64,000 nt of DNA from Cumulibacter soli (lineage in GTDB: Bacteria; Actinomycetota; Actinomycetes; Mycobacteriales; Antricoccaceae). The stretch's first letter is position 1, and each line of letters opens with the position of its first letter. The notes under the pieces were generated by a model, which was not told where the DNA came from, ran no database searches, and saw only the letters and a list, made by a program, of their open reading frames with translations. Location of the stretch: NCBI RefSeq assembly GCF_004382795.1, contig NZ_SMSG01000003.1, positions 1 through 64,000 of the forward strand, given 5' to 3'. Below, in pieces: positions 17,786-37,732 of the stretch. The translations under genes and the position numbers were made by a program.

Positions 17786-19966
17786 TTATGCGGTGGTAGC
17801 CGCCAACGCGAACCAGACGGCGCCTAGAGGCGGCACGGTGATTACCGCCGATGCGGACTGACCGTGCCACGGCACATCCTCGGCGTGCACCGAACCGAGG
17901 TTGCCCACGCCGCTCCCGCCGTACTCGGGGGCATCGGTATTGAGGACCTCGCGCCATGTTCCGGAGCAGGGCAGTCCGATCCGGTAGTCGTGGTGCGGTG
18001 TGCCGGCGAAATTGATCACACAGGCCAGCGCAGTGCCGTCCTTGGCGTACCGCAGAAAAGCCAGCACATTGCGGTGAGCGTCGTTGGCCTCCAGCCACCG
18101 GAAACCGGACGGGTCGGTGTCGAGTTCGTACAGTGCCGGCGTACGGCGATACCGCGCGTTCAAGTCCGATACGAGACGCTGCACACCCGCGTGCCCTGGG
18201 TCGGCCAGCAGGTCCCAGCGAACGCCGCTTTGCTCCGACCACTCCGTGGGCTGCGCGATCTCACACCCCATGAACAGCAACTTCTTCCCCGGATGGCTCC
18301 ACATATATGCGAGGTAACCGCGCACGCCTGCGCGCTGTTGCCAGTCATCGCCCGGCATCTTCGCCAGCAGTGAACCTTTGCCGTGTACGACCTCGTCGTG
18401 GCTGATCGGCAGTACGTAGTTCTCGCTGTAGGCGTACACCATGGAGAAAGTCAGTTCGCCGTGGTGGTGGGAGCGATGAACCGGATCCTTCTCGACGAAC
18501 CGCAGCGAGTCATTCATCCAACCCATGTTCCATTTGAACCCGAATCCGAGCCCGCCTTCGTCGACGCGACGGGTTACGCCCGGCCAGGCGGTCGACTCCT
18601 CGGCGATCGTGACGATTCCGGGGGCTTTGGCATAGAGGACGGTATTGAATTCGCGCAGGAAGGCGACGGCGTCGAGGTCTTCGCGGCCGCCATGCTCGTT
18701 CGGCGTCCATTGGCCGTCTTCGCGGGAATAGTCTAGGTACAGCATCGATGCCACCGCGTCGACCCGCAGACCGTCGATGTGGAACTCCTCGGCCCAGTAG
18801 AGAGCGTTTGCGACCAGGAAGTTGCGTACTTCGCGGCGGCCGAAGTTGAACACGTAGGTGCCCCAGTCCGGATGCTCACCTCGGTTCGGATCGGCGTGTT
18901 CGTACAGCGGTGTGCCGTCGAAGCGGCCCAGTGCCCACGCGTCTTTGGGGAAGTGGGCCGGCACCCAGTCGACGATGACGCCGTACCCGGCTTGGTGCAG
19001 CCGGTCGATCAGATAACGCAGGTCGTCGGGGGAGCCCAAACGCGCGGTCGGTGCGTAGTACGACGTCACCTGGTAACCCCAACTGCCGCCGAACGGGTGC
19101 TCGGCGATCGGCATCAACTCGACGTGGGTAAAGCCGGTGCCGGCCAGATAGTCGACGAGTTCGTCGGCGAGGGCCCGATAACTCAGGCCAGGTTTCCACG
19201 ATCCCGCGTGCAACTCATAGACGCTCATCGGCGCCTTATGCCAGGCGATCTGCGCACGCTCCCGCATCCAGTGCGCATCACCCCACGTGTGCGCGGATTC
19301 GACCACGCGCGAGGCCCATGCCGGCGGGACGTCGGTGCCGAACGCGAGCGGGTCGGCCTTTTGACGTACGACACCGTCGGCGCCGGTGATCTGAAACTTG
19401 TAGTACACCTCGGCCGAGACTCCCGGGATGAAAATTTCCCAGACCCCACTCGCGCCGATCGACCGCATGGGGTACTGCTGAGCACCCCACGAATCGAAGT
19501 CGCCGGTGACCGTCACGCCACGAGCGTTCGGTGCCCACACGGCGAACGACACGCCCCGGGTGCCGTCGAGCTGACGTACGTGCGCGCCGAGGACCTCCCA
19601 GAGGCGCTCATGGCGGCCCTCACCGATGAGGTGGCAGTCCAGTTCACCCAGAGTCGGCAGCCAACGATAGGCATCGTCTGTGATGTGGGTGGCGTCCGGA
19701 TAAGACGCTTCGAGGCGGTAGTCGGCGACGGTGCCAGCGATGACCGCGCCGAAGATTCCGGGATCGGCCAGCAACGTCATTGGCACGCGTTGATCGCCGA
19801 TCAGCACCGACACGGCGCTCGCCTGCGGCCGGTACGCACGAATCACCACGTGGGCGTCATCGAGGCGATGGATACCCAGAATGGAGTGCGGGTCATGATG
19901 TGTACCGCTCACCAGGCGCGCGACATCGTTCGCGTCGATCGCCGGTGCGGGCGTGGCGTCGGTCAT
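17786..19966 (-). CDS. glgB: 1,4-alpha-glucan branching enzyme GlgB
   Basis: Introduces alpha-1,6 branches into alpha-glucan; here it would act on polymers made by GlgE. The 726-aa enzyme has N-terminal all-beta and CBM48 domains (to about 240), the GH13 barrel and a C-terminal beta domain. Catalytic residues D403 (DGLRVDAV), E456 (IAEES) and D524 ([10 protein letters not shown]) match E. coli D405, E458 and D526 with a constant offset of two. Start: ATG with AAGGAG upstream. It is the last gene of the leftward glgE-mak-glgB operon, 44 bases after mak. Confidence 0.97.
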
Positions 19967-20010: not shown

Positions 20011-21285
20011 TCACCGCCCGCACAACGCCGCAACCGCAGCGAGCGGTATCCGGATTCGCTCCGGCCGATACGTCGCCTCGTACGCCACTTCGTAGAGGGC
20101 TTTGTCCAGGACCAGTGCATCGAGCACCCGGCGATGTACGGCGTCCGGCTGCTGAAGGTGATAGCCCTCCAGGAACATGCGGCAGTTGCGGCTGGCCCAT
20201 TCGCTGGCCAGCGACTCGCTACCGGAATTCCAACGCGCGGCGTAATCGAACGATCGCAGCACCCCGGCGATGTCCCGCATGACCGTCTCCGGCGCGCTCC
20301 GTTCGGTGAGCGGGCGCCGCGGTTCGCCCTCGAAATCCACCAGCGCCCAACCGGAATCGCCGAACAACGTCTGGCCCAGGTGGAGGTCCCCGTGAATGCG
20401 CTGCACACTCATGCTCTCGCGCGCGCCGGCGAGGTCCTCGAACGTCGTGCGTGCCGTGTCCAAGTACGGGGTCAGCTGCGTGAGGTCCGCGACGGCCTCC
20501 AGGCGGGCGAGCAAACGTCGAGAAAGGTCGGCGCCGTAACCGGGAACCGCGTGCTCGCCGAGCGCCGTGCCCAGATCGGCGTGCACAGCACCGAGTGCGA
20601 TTCCCAGCTCGTACGCCGATCCTGGGAAATGCTGTTCAGCGGCGCCGTCGGCGAACCGAGCAGCGTCGGCGACGGCCAACGAGAACCCGTCCTTGCCACT
20701 GACATGTCGGTGCACCGCGAGCAGGTCGAACTCACCGCTGCCCGTGCGTAGCGTCGCCCACCCGACGAGTGCCGGAACATGCGCGTTCCCGGCCGCGCGC
20801 AGTGCGGCGCCGATGTCGATTTCTGGATTGCGTCCGGGGTGGAGTCGGCGAAACACCTTCAGCACGTGCCGCGACGTGGTGAGGGTGGTATTCGACTGAT
20901 CGCGCGGCTGAGTGCCGACGTCATCAAGTTGCAGCGGCTCGTCGTCCTGCCACGTCGAGGTGAGCGACGCATGGCGACCGGTGCCGAGCATGGCCACGGC
21001 ATGTGCGGCGGTGACCGGGTGCGCCAATGCATCGAACCAGAGATGTCCGTCGGCGCGGATGACCTCCTCGATCGGGCCCGCTCCTTGGCATCGAGCCATG
21101 GCCAGCAGCCAGTCGGACGGCCCGTGCGCACCGTGGGCTGTGACGATCCACCAGGCGATCTCCAAACCCTCTTCAACGGGTGCGGCAGCGAACTCGTCGA
21201 TCGTGATCTGATCGACGTCGCGTGCGCCGAACCAACGCTGAGTGCCCAGCCATCGCCGCAGTTCGCCGTCGGGAGGACGTTTCAC
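20011..21285 (-). CDS. mak: maltokinase (Pep2/Mak)
   Basis: Phosphorylates maltose to maltose 1-phosphate, the substrate of GlgE. The 424-aa protein has the typical N-terminal cap (RRWLGTQRWFGARD) and an aminoglycoside-phosphotransferase-like kinase domain with RIHGDLHLGQTLF (catalytic loop) and LVDFEGEPRRPL (metal-binding). The GTG start overlaps the glgE stop (GTGA), so the genes are co-translated. Unlike some actinobacteria, it is not fused to trehalose synthase, and no treS is visible in the window. Confidence 0.93.
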   Translation of the reverse strand: MKRPPDGELRRWLGTQRWFGARDVDQITIDEFAAAPVEEGLEIAWWIVTAHGAHGPSDWLLAMARCQGAGPIEEVIRADGHLWFDALAHPVTAAHAVAMLGTGRHASLTSTWQDDEPLQLDDVGTQPRDQSNTTLTTSRHVLKVFRRLHPGRNPEIDIGAALRAAGNAHVPALVGWATLRTGSGEFDLLAVHRHVSGKDGFSLAVADAARFADGAAEQHFPGSAYELGIALGAVHADLGTALGEHAVPGYGADLSRRLLARLEAVADLTQLTPYLDTARTTFEDLAGARESMSVQRIHGDLHLGQTLFGDSGWALVDFEGEPRRPLTERSAPETVMRDIAGVLRSFDYAARWNSGSESLASEWASRNCRMFLEGYHLQQPDAVHRRVLDALVLDKALYEVAYEATYRPERIRIPLAAVAALCGR

Positions 21286-23276
21286 GGAGCGAGCCGCAGG
21301 ATGTGTGCCGGTTCGCGCTCGCTGGACAACTCGACGAAGTTCGCTTCTCCCCAGTCGTACCGCTCGCCGGTGAGCTCGTCGATGACCGTGAACCGGTCAT
21401 GCCAGTCGAGGCCGAGAGCGGGCAGGTTCAGGCGCACGGTGGTCTGCACGGTTGCGGCTGAATCCAGTGCGCAGCACACGAGCACGACGTCACCGGAGCG
21501 CGGCTCACGCCGCGAGAAGACGATGACCTGTTCGTTGTCGCTGTGGTGAAAGGTGAGGTTGGCGATGCTGCTGAGGACGGCCGGGTGCGCGCGGCGGATC
21601 GCGTTGAGCCGCTGCACGAAAGGTTCGAGGCTCGCGCCGTCCTCGAGCGCTCGCTGCCAGTCTCGGGGGCGGGGCTCGTACTTCTCGCTATTCGCGTACT
21701 CCTCGCTGCCATCGACCGCGGGGGTGTGCTCGTACAGTTCGTATCCGCTGTACATTCCCCATGATCCCGACATCATCGCCGCGAGGACCGCGCGGATCTT
21801 GAACATCGCCGGTCCACCCGTCTGTAGCGACGCATGCAGGATGTCCGGCGTATTAACGAACAGGTTCGGCTTCAGATAACCCGCTGAGCAGACCAGGTCC
21901 TTGCCGAACTCCTCGAGTTCGCCCTTGCTCGTCCGCCAGGTGAAGTACGTATAGGACTGCGAAAACCCCCGCATCCCCAAGCCCTTCATCATCGCTGGGC
22001 GGGTGAATGCCTCGGCGAGGAACAGGACGTCCGGATAGTTACGTTTGATCTCCCAAATCAGCCACCCCCAGAAACCGACTGGTTTGGTATGCGGGTTGTC
22101 CACGCGGAAAATGCGTACACCCCGCTCGACCCAAAACGTGACGATTCGCAGAATCTCGGTATACAGCGACTCGGGCGCGTTGTCGAAGTTCAGTGGATAT
22201 ATGTCCTGGTACTTCTTCGGGGGGTTCTCGGCGTACGCGATCGTGCCGTCCGCGAGTGTGGTGAACCACTCGGGGTGCTCTTTTACCCATGGGTGGTCAG
22301 GTGCACATTGCAGTGCCAGGTCGAGGGCGACCTCCAGCCCTAGTTCGGTAGCGCGGTTGACGAACGCGTCGAAGTCTTGCAGGTCGCCCAGATCCGGGTG
22401 TACGGCGTCGTGTCCGCCGAATCGTGAACCGACTGCCCACGGCGAGCCGTGATCAGCGGCGCCCGCAACGAGGGTGTTGTTCGGACCCTTCCGGTTGACC
22501 TCGCCAATCGGGTGGATCGGCGGCAGGTACACCACGTCGAAGCCCATCTGCGCGATCCGAACCAGTTCGGTGGCCGCAGTCGCGAACGTGCCGTGTACGA
22601 CGGTGCCGTCGCTGGCGGTGCCACCGGTGGAGCGGGGGAAGAATTCGTACCACGCACCGACGGAAGCGCGCGGGCGGTCCACCCATAGCCGATACATCGG
22701 CGAGGCGGTGACGAAGTCGCGCACGGGCTCGTCGTACATCGCGGTGGTCACCGGTTCACTGAGCGCGAGGCGGAGCCGATCGCTGACGGCGCGACTCGTG
22801 TCCGCGAGTTGGTCGGCCGCGGCGCGTAAGGCGTCGGCGTGAGCGCTGGGTACTTCTGCCGCTCGGCGCAACAGGCCGACCCCGGTTGCCAGGTCGTTGG
22901 CGAGTTCGCTCGCGTCCTGCCCGGCGTTCCGCTTGGCTTCGATGGCGTGTAGCCAAGTCGCCCACGGATCGCTGAATGCCTCGACGTAGTATTCCCAGGC
23001 ACCCTCACCGGGGAGATCTACGGCCGCATGCCACCGATCGGTACCAGGCGCTCCCGGGCGCATGCGCGCCGTCACCTGCTCCGCCTCGCCGCGGCGCAGC
23101 ACCAGCGTCGCGCCCAACGCGTCGTGGCCTTCCCGAAACGCAGTCGCGGCGAACTCTATGCGCTGGCCCGGGATACCCCGTAACGGAAATCGTCCGCTGT
23201 CGACGGTAGGGGAGACATCAATGATGGCGAACCTGTCGGTTTCGATGGCCGTGGTGATGCGCGCGGCAGCGTCCAT
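21282..23276 (-). CDS. glgE: alpha-1,4-glucan:maltose-1-phosphate maltosyltransferase GlgE
   Basis: Extends linear alpha-1,4-glucan by maltosyl units from maltose 1-phosphate; GH13_3 enzyme of 664 aa. Catalytic candidates: nucleophile D393 (IFRVDNPHTKPV), acid/base E422 (FLAEAFTRP) and D478 (FVNTPDILH), close to the positions reported for the Streptomyces enzyme (394, 423, 480). Also seen: YLPPIHPIGEVNRKGPNN and ENPPKKYQDIYPLNFD. Start: ATG with GAGGA upstream. First gene of the glgE-mak-glgB operon, a complete polymer-making set except for the source of maltose. Confidence 0.97.
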   Translation of the reverse strand: MDAAARITTAIETDRFAIIDVSPTVDSGRFPLRGIPGQRIEFAATAFREGHDALGATLVLRRGEAEQVTARMRPGAPGTDRWHAAVDLPGEGAWEYYVEAFSDPWATWLHAIEAKRNAGQDASELANDLATGVGLLRRAAEVPSAHADALRAAADQLADTSRAVSDRLRLALSEPVTTAMYDEPVRDFVTASPMYRLWVDRPRASVGAWYEFFPRSTGGTASDGTVVHGTFATAATELVRIAQMGFDVVYLPPIHPIGEVNRKGPNNTLVAGAADHGSPWAVGSRFGGHDAVHPDLGDLQDFDAFVNRATELGLEVALDLALQCAPDHPWVKEHPEWFTTLADGTIAYAENPPKKYQDIYPLNFDNAPESLYTEILRIVTFWVERGVRIFRVDNPHTKPVGFWGWLIWEIKRNYPDVLFLAEAFTRPAMMKGLGMRGFSQSYTYFTWRTSKGELEEFGKDLVCSAGYLKPNLFVNTPDILHASLQTGGPAMFKIRAVLAAMMSGSWGMYSGYELYEHTPAVDGSEEYANSEKYEPRPRDWQRALEDGASLEPFVQRLNAIRRAHPAVLSSIANLTFHHSDNEQVIVFSRREPRSGDVVLVCCALDSAATVQTTVRLNLPALGLDWHDRFTVIDELTGERYDWGEANFVELSSEREPAHILRLAP

Positions 23277-23351
23277 GCGCTCATCCTCGCAAATGCCGGC
23301 CGTTGCCTCCAGGGCGTCAGGAGGTTGAGATGTGTGGCGCTCGACGCGCCG

Positions 23352-24995
23352 TCAGGCGTTCCCTGAGTAGGTCGCCACGGTCCAGCCGAACAGCAGACGC
23401 GTGCCGGGGGTGATCAGCACCTCCTGGTACTGCTCGAGCCGGGTCCAGTCCTGCGCTCCCGGGGGTGCGATATGGGTGCCGTTGAGCGAGCCGAGGTCGG
23501 TCAGGACCACCTGCGCACCGCGGATGGCCAGCAACGCGTGTGCGCTGGACAGCACGGTATCCGGATCGATGACGGTGAGCGCGGCTGCTTGCCCCGACTG
23601 CACCCGCGGATCCTTCTCGGGACGACGACCAACCACGTAATCGCGATCGAGCGCGAACGTAGACCCGTCCTCGAAGACAATCGCACCGACGGTTGGTGTC
23701 GATTGTGCATTCGGCGGCTCCGCGGTCCTCGCCTCGTCGATGGGCAGTGGCTGCGCCGGTCCTGCCGGGCGGACATCGCGTAGATCGACGAGTTGGTAAT
23801 CGGGCGCCGGCACAAACTCCCGCGCCCCACCGGCGTCCTGCCCGTCTACCGACGCGGCGTCGGCCGGGCTAGCCCAGGACCCTGGTGCACCAACCTCAGG
23901 TAGCGGCTGCCCGGCGCTGGGCTGCGCATCCGGCGACGGCTGAGCCGGGTGCGGACCGGTCGAAGGTACGGCGTAATTCGCTCCGGTCTCGGCGCCGTAA
24001 TCGGACGTCCCGTCCTGGTGCACGTACTCACCGGTGCCGCCAGTGGGCGCATCGGTGCTGGGGAGGCCAATGCCGGTCCCCACTGCGCCGCCCGCGCCGG
24101 CAGCACCGCTCGCGCCGGCAGCACCGCCCGCGCCGGCACCAGCAGCAGCGCTCGCGCCCGCACCGGCGGCCGCGGCTAGTCCACCGGCCCCCGCCGCGAG
24201 GCCGGCGGCACCCGCGGCGACGCCCAGTGCGTTTGGAGTCGATCCGGAGCCACGCTCCGCGTCGGCCGCGTCGCCGTCCGCCGTTTCCCAGTGCGTTCCG
24301 GACTCACCTTGCCCGGCCGGCGCGCTTGGCTCGACGCCGGCTGCGATCACATCAGCGTCGTGATGAGCGGGCTCGTGGACAGTTGTGGCAGGCTCGGGCG
24401 CCTGGGGCGGACCGTCCGCCGATACCGCCTCGCCCGACACCGCCTGTGCCGATTCGTCGGCCGATTCCGCCTCTGCCGCAGCCACCTGCGTGTAACTTCC
24501 GGTGTTGCCGCTAGCGTGGCGCCGTCCGGTCGGCAGCGGGTGGACCCAAGCGCCACCACCGGGCACGGCACCGCCGTCGAGGTCGAGGAGTTCACGGACC
24601 GGCTCCGGGTTCGCCTGAGGCTGCCCGATGCCGACGTACACCGATTCGGACATCGCGAACGGCACCGTGATTCCGAGTTCACCGTGCCCGGTCGCAGGAG
24701 CGACATCGGACTGATTGCGTACGGTGACCGGTCCACGCAGCAGACCTTGCGCGCGATCACCCGAGACGATCAACGCGGCGAAGACGGTGCTGGGGTGCTC
24801 CTGAAGCACCTGCTGAAGCGAGCCGAGCGCGCTGGCGAGATCTGCGCCGCCCGGGTCGGTACCCGGCTCCAGTTGCAACACGCCCCCCAGTGCCTCCCAG
24901 GCGGCGGAGGTCGTTTCGGCACCGACCCACAGCAGGCTGTCGGCATTGCGGGCAACGATGCCGTGGCCAGGAACAACTTCGTAACGCAGGGTCAT
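23352..24995 (-). CDS. FHA-domain protein with long Ala/Gly/Pro linker
   Basis: A 547-aa protein with a C-terminal forkhead-associated domain, a phosphothreonine-binding module (about 440-545). Key FHA positions: G456-R457 (VVGRRPEKD), S483 and H486 (LSSAHALL, where the usual SRxH has Ser instead of Arg) and N505-G506 (SLNGT). The first 150 residues form a folded region I cannot assign (LRYEVVPGHGIVARN...FAALIVSGDRAQGLL). Between them lies about 280 residues of low-complexity Ala/Gly/Pro/Glu sequence. The start at ATG 24995 is one base after the pseudokinase stop, so the pair is one translational unit; a longer frame to 25058 would overlap that gene. No membrane segment. Function unknown, probably signalling with its partner. 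Confidence 0.78.
   Translation of the reverse strand: MTLRYEVVPGHGIVARNADSLLWVGAETTSAAWEALGGVLQLEPGTDPGGADLASALGSLQQVLQEHPSTVFAALIVSGDRAQGLLRGPVTVRNQSDVAPATGHGELGITVPFAMSESVYVGIGQPQANPEPVRELLDLDGGAVPGGGAWVHPLPTGRRHASGNTGSYTQVAAAEAESADESAQAVSGEAVSADGPPQAPEPATTVHEPAHHDADVIAAGVEPSAPAGQGESGTHWETADGDAADAERGSGSTPNALGVAAGAAGLAAGAGGLAAAAGAGASAAAGAGAGGAAGASGAAGAGGAVGTGIGLPSTDAPTGGTGEYVHQDGTSDYGAETGANYAVPSTGPHPAQPSPDAQPSAGQPLPEVGAPGSWASPADAASVDGQDAGGAREFVPAPDYQLVDLRDVRPAGPAQPLPIDEARTAEPPNAQSTPTVGAIVFEDGSTFALDRDYVVGRRPEKDPRVQSGQAAALTVIDPDTVLSSAHALLAIRGAQVVLTDLGSLNGTHIAPPGAQDWTRLEQYQEVLITPGTRLLFGWTVATYSGNA
24093..24140. repeat. short 18-base tandem repeat inside the FHA gene
   Basis: A 17-base unit (CGCGCCGGCAGCACCGC) recurs exactly at 24093 and 24111, with a partial third copy at 24129, period 18 (six codons). 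It encodes part of the Ala/Gly linker and could vary in length by slippage in multiples of six residues. Confidence 0.7.
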
Positions 24996-24996
24996 C

Positions 24997-25836
24997 TCAT
25001 CGCTTCCACAGTGCATCGAGCCGGTCGGCCAGATCACCGGCGGTCTTGGGTCGCTCATCGGAAGTCCGCTCGATGCACTGGCGCACGATACGTTCGATCG
25101 GCTCGGGAAGTCCGGTAGCGACGGTGGGTTGATTGTCCAGGATGGTGCTCAACGCGGCGGTCGGTTGGCTCTCATCCAGATTGGGATACAGCGTTCGGCC
25201 CGACGCTGCGTAATGCAACGTCGCGCCGAGGGAGAACAAATCGCTGGAGCGGCTCGGGGCCTTGCCCCGCAGTACGTCTGGGTCCAAGTAGGCCAGGTGG
25301 GGCTGGCCCAAGCGTCCCGTGAGGGTCATTCCGGGGCTGAGGTAACCTGACAACCCTGGGTCGGCGAGTTTCGCTCCGTGCGGGTGCAAGACCACCGCGC
25401 CGGGATGGATGTTGCGATGAGCGATTCCGGCCTCGTGCAGGTCATGCGCTCCGCGGGCCGCACAGGAGATCGCGCGTAACACGTCGGCGAAGTTGAGTTG
25501 AGTAGCCGGTGCTGCGAGGCTACCGCCGGGAAGGTGCTCCATCGCGCAATAGACAACACCGTCGTTTCGACCGACCTCCCACAGTTGCACCAGGAAGTCC
25601 GAGCGAATCTCGGCGATCGCGCGCAATGCTGTTGTGATCGTCTCGAACGTACTGTTGGCATCCGCGCCGGCGTCGGCCGGAATAACCTTCAGGACAGCGT
25701 GCTCGCCGTGCACAGCCAACCGTCGTGGTGTCTTGGCCAGCACGAACGACCCGCCGCTGCCGAGCGCTCGCACGACGTCGAAATCGGCGACCCGATTCAC
25801 CGCAAACGCGGGATGTCCGGTGTTGTCCTGTTGCAT
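24997..25836 (-). CDS. Ser/Thr protein kinase-like pseudokinase
   Basis: A 279-aa protein with a protein-kinase fold and no membrane segment. The glycine loop (LGSGGSFVLAK) and VAIK-type lysine K50 (AVLKVIP) are present. The catalytic loop HRDLKPxN reads HRNIHPGA (140-147): the base Asp is Asn142, the Lys is His and the metal-binding Asn is Ala. DFG reads DPG (159-161). Loss of the catalytic base predicts no ordinary kinase activity, though ATP or ligand binding may remain. Start: ATG at 25836 with GAGGGG upstream; a longer frame to 25941 has no support. The FHA gene begins one base after its stop, so they are likely partners. Confidence 0.85.
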   Translation of the reverse strand: MQQDNTGHPAFAVNRVADFDVVRALGSGGSFVLAKTPRRLAVHGEHAVLKVIPADAGADANSTFETITTALRAIAEIRSDFLVQLWEVGRNDGVVYCAMEHLPGGSLAAPATQLNFADVLRAISCAARGAHDLHEAGIAHRNIHPGAVVLHPHGAKLADPGLSGYLSPGMTLTGRLGQPHLAYLDPDVLRGKAPSRSSDLFSLGATLHYAASGRTLYPNLDESQPTAALSTILDNQPTVATGLPEPIERIVRQCIERTSDERPKTAGDLADRLDALWKR

Positions 25837-25969
25837 GCGTCGCCCCTCACTGTCACCGCAGACTCTAGTCGGCCGGTGCGGTATGAAAAAAGAACCTGCG
25901 CTCAAGTGGCATATCGCACGTAGCGGCAGCACGGACCCCATCGTGCCCGCGTAGCCCGCTTAAGGTTTG

Positions 25970-26800
25970 ATGGAGCATGTGTTTACGCCAAGTCCGCTGG
26001 ACGAGTACGAGTCGGATCCCGACCTCGTCATCGACATGCGTGACGTGTCGGTGCGGCGAGGCCAGACCACGTTGCTGCACGACCTCTCCTGGCAGGTAGA
26101 GCTCGACGAACGGTGGGTGGTGCTCGGGCGCAATGGCGCCGGCAAGACCACCACGCTGCAATTGGCAGCCGCTCAGATGCACCCGACTTCAGGGTCGGTA
26201 CACGTGCTTGGCGAGCGCGTGGGCAAGGTCGACGTCTTCGAACTGCGCCCGCGCATCGGCTTAGCCTCAGCGGCGCTGAACGCGAGGGTGCCGCCGCAGG
26301 AACAGGTGGTCGATATTGTTCAGTCTGCGGGTTATTCCGTCATCGGTCGGTGGCGCGAACGCTACGACAGCATGGACACTGACCGGGCGCTGGAATTGCT
26401 GGAGCAGTGGGGGATAGCGCGTCTCGCCAATCGTGAGTACGGCACTCTCAGTGAGGGCGAGCGTAAACGGACCCAGATCTGTCGCGCGCTGATGACCGAT
26501 CCGGAATTGTTGCTACTCGACGAGCCCGCCGCCGGTCTGGACCTGACCGGTCGCGAGGATCTACTGGGGCGGCTCAGTGAGTTCGCCGCTGACCCGTTCG
26601 CTCCGGCGATGGTCATGGTGACGCATCACGTCGAGGAGATCCCTCGCGGATTCACACATCTGCTCATGCTTCGCGAAGGCGGCGTCGTACGCCAAGGGTT
26701 ACTGGAGCAGGAGATGAACGAGCAGGCGATCAAGGACACCTTCGGCTTGGACGTTTTTCTCAGCCAGCGCCGTGGGCGCTACTTCGCGTCAATCGGGTAA
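25970..26800 (+). CDS. stand-alone ABC ATPase
   Basis: A 276-aa ABC-type ATPase with Walker A GRNGAGKTT (53-61), signature LSEGE (160-164), Walker B LLLLDEP (180-186) and H-loop MVTHHVEE. No permease or binding protein is adjacent, and the protein has no membrane segment. It is a single-domain member resembling ModF/YlmA-type proteins, whose transport role is uncertain. Start: ATG at 25970 after AAGG; TTG one codon earlier is possible. It is divergent from the pseudokinase gene. Confidence 0.85.
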   Translation: MEHVFTPSPLDEYESDPDLVIDMRDVSVRRGQTTLLHDLSWQVELDERWVVLGRNGAGKTTTLQLAAAQMHPTSGSVHVLGERVGKVDVFELRPRIGLASAALNARVPPQEQVVDIVQSAGYSVIGRWRERYDSMDTDRALELLEQWGIARLANREYGTLSEGERKRTQICRALMTDPELLLLDEPAAGLDLTGREDLLGRLSEFAADPFAPAMVMVTHHVEEIPRGFTHLLMLREGGVVRQGLLEQEMNEQAIKDTFGLDVFLSQRRGRYFASIG

Positions 26801-35927: not shown

Positions 35928-37631
35928 TCAGCGGGTACCGAACGCGTGGGCGTACCGCTGTGCCGAGGACGCGGGGCTCACTAGTTCGCCGTCTATGTCG
36001 ACGAGGCGAGCTCCGCTGCTGATCATCCATCGTGCGAGCAACCGGGTCTCCTCATACTCATGCGCGATCGCTTCGGTGGCGTCATCCGGGAAGTGCTGCT
36101 CGGTGGCGCGCAGTTCGCGCGCGATAGGCAGCACCGAGGACGTGCGGTCGGCAACCGCGGCCGCCGCCAGTCGGCCGCGGGTAATGACGGCGAGGTCCCA
36201 GCGCCCTCCGGTGGCCGGCGCGGCCAGGACCATTCGGGCGACGGAGCCGAGTTGCTCGAGTTGCTGTGTTCTGCTCAGGCCGCTCACCAGCGAACGGGCA
36301 CGATCGCGCACCTGGGCGGCGTCCTCGAATCGTTCGGCGTCCGATAGGCGTTGGATTCGGCGGTGCAGCGGCTCCAATAACGGTGACGGGTCTGCTCGGG
36401 CGGACTGAATGATGGGTGAGATCTGAGCGGCGTACTGCTCGGGGGTTTGGGTGCCGGTGCATGGTGCTGAGCACCTACCGAGCTCCGCCAGAGCACATGG
36501 TGTCGGCGCAGTGGTGGTGGTGATCCGGTCAGTGCAGCGTCGCACCAGGTTCGATTCGTGGATCGCATCCATCGCCGCGGTTGCGGCGCCGCGGGATCCG
36601 AATGGACCGATCTGCGCCAGCTCGCCGTCCCGCCGTCGGTGGACGATACTCAGTCGCGGAAAGCGTTCACTGGTCAAGCGCAACCACACCGAAGAACGGG
36701 CGTTCTTCGACCGTCGGTTGTAGCGCGGCGCGAGCGCGTCGATCAACCGCACTTCGCGGATCTGTGCCTCCAAGTCGTGCGCGCACTCGACGACGTCGAC
36801 TTTCGTGGCGAGCTGCACCATCTCACGCATCCGAGCCCGCGGTTCACTGGCGGTGAAGTATGCCCGCACTCGTCGGCGTACCGACGAACTCTTGCCGACG
36901 TACAGCGCGGCTCCTTGCGCATCGCGGAAGATGTATACCCCAGGGCCGGTCGTTAATGGGTCGGCGAGGGTGCGTTTCGCGCGTTGCGCCGGGGTCGTCT
37001 CCTGTAGCAGCGCCAGTAACTCATCGACGGTGTGCACACCATTCGAGCCGCCGATTCGTTCCAGCAGCGCGTGCAGCACGTCGAGTGTCGCGCGCGCATC
37101 ATCCAGCGCGCGATGGGTGGGTGTGGTGGCCGCGCCGAGGTGCGCTGCAAGCGTGCCGAGTTTGTGGTTGGGCACCTCACCGCCGACGAGGACGCGACGC
37201 GCCAACTGCAACGTGTCGAGCGTCCGATGACGAGGCCAGGCGAGGTCGGTAGCGCGGGCAGCAGCCTTGAGAAATCCCAGATCGAATCCGGCGTTATGCG
37301 CGACCACGATGGTCCCGGCGTTGAGACCGGCGAACTCAAGAAAAGTGGGGAGTACGCCGGTGATTGGTGGGGCTGCATCGACCATGCGATCGGTGATTCC
37401 GGTGAGCACCTGCACATAAGGGTCAATCGGAGCCTGAGGGTTGACCAGGGTATGGAATTCGCCGAGCACTTCACCGCCGCGCGACTTCACCGCACCGATC
37501 TCGGTGATGGCGTCCGCTGCCCGTGACCCGCCAGTGGTTTCCAGGTCGACAACCAGAAACGTGGCCTGACTCAGTGGTTCACCGATCTCATCAATGCTTA
37601 GTTGTGCGGGCAGGTGCGGCATGGCGAGCAC
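35928..37631 (-). CDS. DEDD exonuclease fused to a UvrC-like GIY-YIG domain
   Basis: A putative DNA-repair nuclease of about 567 aa. N-terminal DnaQ-like 3'-5' exonuclease (VVDLETTG, VAHNAGFDLGFL, HRALDDARATLDVL). Middle GIY-YIG nuclease as in UvrC/Cho (GPGVYIFRDAQGAALYVGKSSSVRRRVRAYF). Then a Cys-containing UvrC-type segment (CALAELGRCSAPCTG) and a UVR-like helical region (RRIQRLSDAERFEDAAQVRDRAR). The mycobacterial locus next to trpD has a similar fusion (recalled). The start is uncertain: GTG 37631 is chosen, with ATG 37622 and TTG 37652 as alternatives; none has an ideal ribosome site. Confidence 0.88.
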   Translation of the reverse strand: MLAMPHLPAQLSIDEIGEPLSQATFLVVDLETTGGSRAADAITEIGAVKSRGGEVLGEFHTLVNPQAPIDPYVQVLTGITDRMVDAAPPITGVLPTFLEFAGLNAGTIVVAHNAGFDLGFLKAAARATDLAWPRHRTLDTLQLARRVLVGGEVPNHKLGTLAAHLGAATTPTHRALDDARATLDVLHALLERIGGSNGVHTVDELLALLQETTPAQRAKRTLADPLTTGPGVYIFRDAQGAALYVGKSSSVRRRVRAYFTASEPRARMREMVQLATKVDVVECAHDLEAQIREVRLIDALAPRYNRRSKNARSSVWLRLTSERFPRLSIVHRRRDGELAQIGPFGSRGAATAAMDAIHESNLVRRCTDRITTTTAPTPCALAELGRCSAPCTGTQTPEQYAAQISPIIQSARADPSPLLEPLHRRIQRLSDAERFEDAAQVRDRARSLVSGLSRTQQLEQLGSVARMVLAAPATGGRWDLAVITRGRLAAAAVADRTSSVLPIARELRATEQHFPDDATEAIAHEYEETRLLARWMISSGARLVDIDGELVSPASSAQRYAHAFGTR

Positions 37632-37732
37632 CGTACGACGAGTCTCCGACAATTTTTGCGACCGAACCTCGGCCTCGTTGAGTTGCCGGTTCGGGCGGGA
37701 AATTTGTCGGTGTCCGTTCCTAGCCTGCTGTC

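Follow-up and report, generated by a model that had tools for sequence, protein, structure and literature searches.

The locus: a pseudokinase gene and an FHA protein gene

We analyzed a stretch of 64,000 nucleotides from the actinobacterium Cumulibacter soli (RefSeq assembly GCF_004382795.1, contig NZ_SMSG01000003.1, positions 1 to 64,000; hereafter the window), in which a gene for a kinase-like protein is directly followed on the reverse strand by a gene for a protein with an FHA domain. An original prediction, made from the letters of the window, had taken the two for a dead kinase and a phosphothreonine reader that might serve as a scaffold or as an ATP-sensing switch. The pair consists of the following features.

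24997..25836, reverse strand: pseudokinase gene, 279 amino acids, stop codon within the coordinates
25324..25326, reverse strand: codon of T171 in the activation loop (GMTLTG), a candidate phosphothreonine docking site if phosphorylated
23352..24995, reverse strand: FHA protein gene, 547 amino acids, stop codon included, ATG one base past the kinase TGA
24522..24995, reverse strand: N-terminal domain (N-domain), residues 1-158; compact and PP2C-like by predicted fold, with no acidic residue conserved
23682..24521, reverse strand: low-complexity linker, residues 159-438, holding a conserved short stretch FxPxxDxxxxDLxxV ... PLP
23352..23681, reverse strand: FHA domain, with R457, S483, H486, N505 and G506 kept

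The spacing of one base had been predicted correctly. Scans of window positions 23200-26100 found no promoters or terminators.

The window kinase matches the Pfam Pkinase family (E 1.4e-19, 71 bits, cut-off 31.7) and terminates after the last kinase helix. Its AlphaFold2 model, with a predicted local distance difference test (pLDDT) score of 83.9, shows a Hanks kinase fold, with structural matches of Z up to 24.8, to PknA. The catalytic loop reads H140-R141-N142-I143-H144-P145-G146-A147 (HRN for HRD, with the catalytic-loop Lys and Asn gone) and the DFG position is D159-P160-G161 (DPG), while K50 and D159 are present. The original prediction had read these losses and the retained K50 rightly; it had also held the glycine loop to be kept, which did not stand, as the loop is two residues shorter than the GxGxxG of relatives, in the same way in all five family orthologues. 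In these five orthologues the Glu of helix alphaC is replaced by Ala (A70), whereas it is Glu in 45/45 kinases that are not adjacent to an FHA gene. Judged from its sequence, the window kinase lacks residues of active Hanks-type Ser/Thr kinases, though the fold is present.

Conservation within the family

The family was sampled with five genomes from three genera, and the window-type group is labeled f1. The pair of kinase and FHA genes is present in all five, with kinases 57-66% identical to that of the window and with FHA genes that start 1, 1, 1, 2 and -4 bases relative to the kinase stop (the last an overlap of 4). The motifs HRNIHP and DPG are invariant in the five kinases. The ratio of nonsynonymous to synonymous substitution rates (dN/dS, NG86 method), obtained from three of the ten possible genome pairs at a partly saturated dS of 0.6-1.7, was 0.19-0.28 for the kinase, 0.26-0.34 for the N-domain, 0.11-0.19 for the FHA domain and 0.36-0.41 for the linker.

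Because the dead form shows this dN/dS and carries the same substitutions in 5/5 genomes, the kinase is, as far as these sequences tell, under purifying selection in its catalytically dead form, and simple decay is rejected. Retention of the dead kinase suggests a docking part instead of a decaying gene. The original prediction of a dead kinase coupled to an FHA protein is thus borne out: the search across genomes that it had suggested returned both the pair and HRN in every family genome, and FHA coupling in 13 of 58 kinases compared. It had also considered that homologues with intact HRD and DFG might expose this copy as simple decay; such homologues exist (42 of 45 kinases without an adjacent FHA gene keep the HRD Asp), but the decay itself does not hold in the face of purifying selection.

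Recurrence of kinase-FHA coupling

Relatives of the kinase were found in 37 of 397 genomes of an order sample (E <=1e-35) and in 14 of 394 genomes of a class sample (E <=1e-45), the window's own counted in each and six candidates scored per genome. The 58 kinases compared comprise 49 and a further nine from a later search, which matched 27 genomes, nine of them new, all of which were examined; a second match in genome G347 (locus L103, 33% identical, canonical motifs) was taken as another kinase and stands outside the 58. In 13/58 the FHA gene lies directly next to the kinase gene on the same strand, and all 13 have lost the HRD Asp (to N, A or G). Similar pairs of a dead kinase and an FHA protein are therefore not confined to f1, and occur in other families of the same order:

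f1, five family genomes: coupled kinases with HRN and DPG
f2, genomes G106 and G078: coupled kinases with HRA and DPG
f16a, genomes G347, G185, G768 and G783: coupled kinases with HRG and EPA
f16b, genomes G774 and G776: coupled kinases with HAA, and with DLG and DIG

Already among the first 49 kinases the Asp was lost in 9/9 adjacent versus 3/40 non-adjacent ones, and K50 is kept in 58/58. The set of 45 scored as not adjacent may include errors: where the flank was just 1.5 kb long, a strongly diverged FHA gene lying on the far side might be missed. The 42 that keep the HRD Asp also have the catalytic Asn, DLG and the alphaC Glu; in the other three the Asp is replaced by Ser (two) or Asn (one). 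The catalytic-loop Lys is present in 34/45, with Thr in eight and Asn in three.

In most of these relatives the kinase looks active and belongs to a larger cluster, represented by 19 loci, of six genes: FLAVO (our label for a 586-amino-acid protein with a sub-threshold Trp_halogenase match, E 0.037), TM144 (a 144-amino-acid protein that is membrane-like by eye), an FHA protein, a Na+/H+-exchanger-like protein matching PF00999, the kinase and a second, canonical kinase. The FHA protein of the cluster has the same kind of N-domain and, ahead of the FHA domain, a zinc-ribbon-like cysteine stretch. All six genes occur in 12/19 loci and all except the second kinase in two more (L089, L095); of the remaining five, two are short contigs (L087, L088) and three contain coupled pairs (L094, L096, L097). 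The cluster is conserved and of an actinobacterial type (L025, L026, L084 and L090 are among its loci). Family genome G003 carries both versions, a larger cluster with an active-looking kinase and a window-type pair. Kinases at L087 3617-4405 (HRS), L088 3825-4616 (HRS) and L092 9103-9906 (HAN) have lost the HRD Asp, keep DLG and lie beside the exchanger-like gene; they are possible intermediates.

In a tree of the 58 kinases built without the catalytic columns, the 13 coupled kinases are split over three places: f1 and f16b are each nested among uncoupled kinases in a starred clade, and f2 groups with f16a. A single clade for all 13 was weakly rejected by the approximately unbiased (AU) test (p-AU 0.042). 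Coupling has likely arisen at least twice, and three origins are possible, judging from these trees.

Several points weigh against a general tie between coupling and kinase death, or against its repeated origin. The 58 kinases are a non-random set, for which the dead f1 alignment and a dead kinase served as queries, and the search with the dead kinase contributed 4 of the 13 coupled ones. Loss of the Asp occurs without FHA adjacency (3/45), and 11/45 non-adjacent kinases are also without the catalytic-loop Lys. One clade of f1, f2 and f16a (11 kinases) was not rejected (p-AU 0.247), nor was one origin for the nine adjacent rows in the first tree, of 49 kinases and three outgroup rows (p 0.318). 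The tree program warns of long branches, and a sign test on independent pairs, of which there were only three, was not significant.

Domains of the FHA protein

The C-terminal FHA domain matches PF00498 with 30.1 bits (cut-off 20.7). Residues R457, S483, H486, N505 and G506, which we take to be the phosphothreonine-binding residues of the domain, are invariant across the five family genomes. Identity with FhaB/OdhI was considered and rejected (21.1 and 16 bits, below the cut-offs of 125 and 200). An anti-phage role was likewise rejected: the PADLOC matches of the kinase (PD-T4-6, mad6) are generic and its active-looking relative in G003 scores higher, and PADLOC gave no match for the FHA protein. 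The linker of about 280 amino acids contains 25% Ala, 16% Gly and 10% Pro with a net charge of -28. It is otherwise variable around its short stretch in f1, and a similar F.SV.L ... PLP was seen by eye in relatives.

The 158-amino-acid N-domain of the window protein gave no match in a Pfam scan, which agrees with the original description of an unassigned N-terminal domain followed by a long linker. The AlphaFold2 model from a 13-row alignment has a pLDDT of 84.2 and a predicted TM-score (pTM) of 0.80. In a Foldseek search against the PDB the 11 best matches were, by title or recall, PP2C/SpoIIE-type phosphatases, the twelfth being an amidotransferase (best E 3.4e-3, probability 1.00, query-normalized TM-score 0.35-0.52). 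VIA-align gave Z 9.9 for SpoIIE, 9.4 for Rv1364c, 9.1 for PstP and 7.6 for TAB1. Taken together, the model points to a domain that probably has a PP2C-like fold.

This assignment is open to objection. All of its support comes from predicted structure. No Foldseek match falls under E 0.001, the TM-score reaches only 0.52 and the root-mean-square deviation is 6-9 A; the fiftieth match of VIA-align still has Z 7.1, and a best Z of 7-8 is, by the tool's own account, usual for models that lack a clear match. Sequence support was absent: no PP2C family matched the N-domains of 13 members at E 10 (two chance families matched, one member each), and hhalign comparisons with the family's own PP2Cs, run alongside an unrelated control, gave probabilities of 0.9% and 0.5%.

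In PP2C phosphatases the Asp residues of the motifs NNxD, DGMGG, DG and PDN bind metal. These motifs are fully conserved in an alignment of ten PP2Cs of the family (10 of 13 stretches; those excluded were L123, which has a stop, and with it L124 and L137), whereas the 13-row N-domain alignment contains no invariant or near-invariant acidic column. Because no acidic column is conserved, we take the N-domain not to be a metal-dependent phosphatase, as far as residues can indicate this.

Gene neighborhood

Downstream of the pair, genes of alpha-glucan metabolism follow on the same strand.

21282..23276, reverse strand: GlgE (maltosyltransferase) gene, the next gene, 75 bases downstream; PF11896 and PF21702; candidate output of the pair
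20011..21285, reverse strand: maltokinase-like (Pep2) gene; NCBIfam TreS_Cterm putative maltokinase, 166.6 bits, below the cut-off of 375
17786..19966, reverse strand: GlgB branching enzyme gene; TIGR01515, 934 bits, cut-off 464

This order of glgE, the pep2-like gene and glgB behind the pair is shared by the window and two congeners. The gene glgE lies near the pair in 5/5 family genomes and the pep2-like gene in 4/5 family loci, not being found in G003. In G003 and G004 a convergent glgP stands between the pair and glgE, and GlgP was undetected in the three genomes of the window's genus; the pair therefore stays near glgE with or without glgP.

Five of the six f2/f16a pairs have a GH15 trehalase-like gene ahead of the FHA gene; the contig of the sixth (G185) starts within its FHA gene. 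Sugar-enzyme genes lie beside the pair in two of the three groups (f1, and f2 with f16a). Two of the GH15 proteins were scanned: both have a trehalase-like N-domain, and against an archaeal trehalase model they reach 425 and 407 bits, which is below the cut-off of 820. At L141 14655-17695 and L142 8704-11854 the GH15 gene, the FHA gene and the pseudokinase gene are tightly packed, with frames abutting or overlapping.

The original prediction had remarked neither on the missing alphaC Glu nor on the repeated pairing, the PP2C-like prediction, the active-looking relatives in the larger cluster and the sugar-enzyme neighbors. Elsewhere in the window, ARAGORN reports a tRNA-Cys at 37110-37187 on the forward strand, antisense inside the open frame 35928-37652 and perhaps a false positive.

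Comparison with known pseudokinase-FHA pairs

Pseudokinase-FHA pairs are already known in two forms, one phosphorylation dependent and one held to be independent of phosphorylation, and the form, apparently undescribed in the view of the original prediction, has precedents in kind. In mycobacteria, phosphorylation by PknB recruits the FHA domain of FhaA to the pseudokinase of MviN (MurJ), according to PMC12599244 and PMC11898655. The window pair resembles this system, as described there, in combining a dead Hanks-type kinase domain with a partner in which a long linker connects a globular domain at the N-terminus to an FHA domain at the C-terminus. It differs in that the pseudokinase of MviN belongs to a membrane flippase and no longer has the beta3 Lys (VALT) or DFG (PMC12599244), whereas that of the window is a free 279-amino-acid protein that keeps K50 and whose gene adjoins the FHA gene. 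The ActPs3 (MviN) group is marked by loss of the beta3 Lys and DFG, a deletion in the activation loop and the MviN membrane protein; the window kinase departs from it, with K50 and DxG kept and no MviN membrane part. Two further FHA genes in the genome, at C5 174432-175123 beside a PP2C at C5 173794, are presumably fhaA/fhaB.

The second form is found in type VIIb secretion, where the pseudokinase EssB/YukC binds the FHA domains of EssC/YukB (PMC9600267, PMC9436818). The partners there are membrane components, their FHA domains have not conserved the residues that bind phosphothreonine, and the contact is regarded as independent of phosphorylation (PMC9600267), whereas the corresponding residues of the window FHA domain are intact in 5/5 genomes. 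The change of HRD to HRN in the five family kinases is shared with ActPs2, a mostly actinobacterial group; ActPs2 members have mostly a beta3 Lys to Arg change, a DFG deletion and insertions of 32 and 250 residues, as PMC12599244 describes them, and the window kinase has none of these. By the features compared, all read from sequence, the window pair would stand outside ActPs2, ActPs3 and EssB-EssC. It would work most like MviN-FhaA by analogy, because the FHA residues of the window protein are intact.

More distant likenesses concern the FHA protein. KAPP of plants joins an FHA domain to a PP2C that is active as a phosphatase; TAB1 is an inactive PP2C fold that acts as a kinase adaptor. The window protein would likewise join an FHA domain to a PP2C fold, and TAB1 chains are among the VIA-align matches of its N-domain, but a relation at the sequence level is not apparent and, unlike the active KAPP, the window N-domain is without a conserved acid. 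The FHA domain has a weak PDB match to 5a8i (E 0.0044), presumably ArnA, a Sulfolobus FHA protein. ArnA has a zinc finger, and relatives of the window FHA protein carry the zinc-ribbon-like cysteine stretch; the window protein is without it, and the partners differ. A literature search covering open-licence PMC papers found no published description of the window pair.

Proposed mechanism and alternatives

Our tentative preference, held at somewhat less than even confidence, is that the pair is a phosphorylation-gated scaffold, built of pseudoenzymes and a live reader and working in the manner of MviN-FhaA. The pseudokinase and the FHA protein would form a complex. A canonical cellular kinase of the PknA/PknB type would phosphorylate a threonine, most likely T171 or T173 or else a threonine of a client enzyme, and the FHA domain would bind the phosphothreonine, with the pseudokinase and PP2C-like domains acting as docking surfaces. 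T171 is the first candidate because the position is Thr in 13/13 FHA-adjacent kinases, versus 33/45 of the others, a difference not corrected for relatedness. It lies in a part of the activation loop (residues 166-176) that AlphaFold2 models with pLDDT <50. The Gly at +3 of T171 speaks against the site, which is not an obvious FHA ligand.

Enzymes of trehalose and alpha-glucan turnover might be the clients, a weaker step, proposed because the pair adjoins their genes. GlgE of Mycobacterium tuberculosis is inhibited through PknB phosphorylation, as reported in PMC4663749. Gene order is conserved around the f1 pair, so the adjacency to glg genes may be plain inheritance, and the f16b pairs, which sit with FLAVO and TM144 but without the exchanger, have no sugar enzyme beside them; both points tell against these clients. 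The pair may have been co-opted from the larger signaling cluster, whose kinase mostly looks active. A broader proposition, that FHA coupling accompanies kinase death (13/13, to N, A or G, plausibly on two to three occasions) and yields a module of dead writer, dead-eraser-like PP2C fold and live reader controlling trehalose/alpha-glucan enzymes, seems rather doubtful to us.

The best placed of the alternatives, though an unlikely one, is a nucleotide-sensing switch, in which ATP is bound through K50 and D159, with Mg weak or absent, and its occupancy alters the contact with the FHA protein. The presence of K50 in 58/58 kinases and of D159 in all f1 members fits such a switch. Against it stand the shortened glycine loop and the absence of alphaC Glu, catalytic-loop Lys and catalytic-loop Asn from 5/5 orthologues; DxG is ExA in 4/4 f16a pairs, so that pairs of this kind do not have an Mg site in common. 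The ATP-sensing half of the original prediction is weakened accordingly, with K50 and D159 as what remains of it.

Alternatively, the pair could retain the job of the larger cluster, in regulating transport or the envelope together with the exchanger-like protein, FLAVO and the small membrane-like protein, with the glg neighbors incidental. The exchanger-like gene adjoins 43 of the 45 non-adjacent kinases (the FLAVO gene two of them), the inherited f1 gene order would account for the glg neighbors, and the f16b pairs have remained with cluster genes. FLAVO, however, was not found in four of the five family genomes, G003 being the exception, and all four keep the pair, while the f2/f16a pairs share a run with a sugar enzyme; we consider this explanation a long way from probable.

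Residual or altered catalysis, with weak phosphorylation by the HRN kinase or a different transfer reaction such as the AMPylation of SelO, would make use of the retained K50 and D159 and has precedents in pseudokinases with new chemistry (SelO, SidJ; PMC12599244). Against this, the catalytic Asp is lost jointly with the Lys, the Asn and the alphaC Glu, and no substitute set of conserved residues was recognized, no systematic search having been made; altered catalysis is accordingly very improbable. Neutral decay of a redundant kinase, to which the intact homologues and the two versions in G003 might point, can be practically dismissed in view of the low dN/dS and of identical substitutions across three genera.

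Most bacterial pseudokinases are without an assigned function. In the group described here, active-looking kinases and their dead versions are close enough for residue-by-residue comparison, and the dead versions are coupled to a phosphothreonine reader with a predicted phosphatase-fold domain. The pair thus makes it testable whether a kinase that lost catalysis may have become a docking subunit, and whether GlgE and the GH15 enzymes may be its clients.

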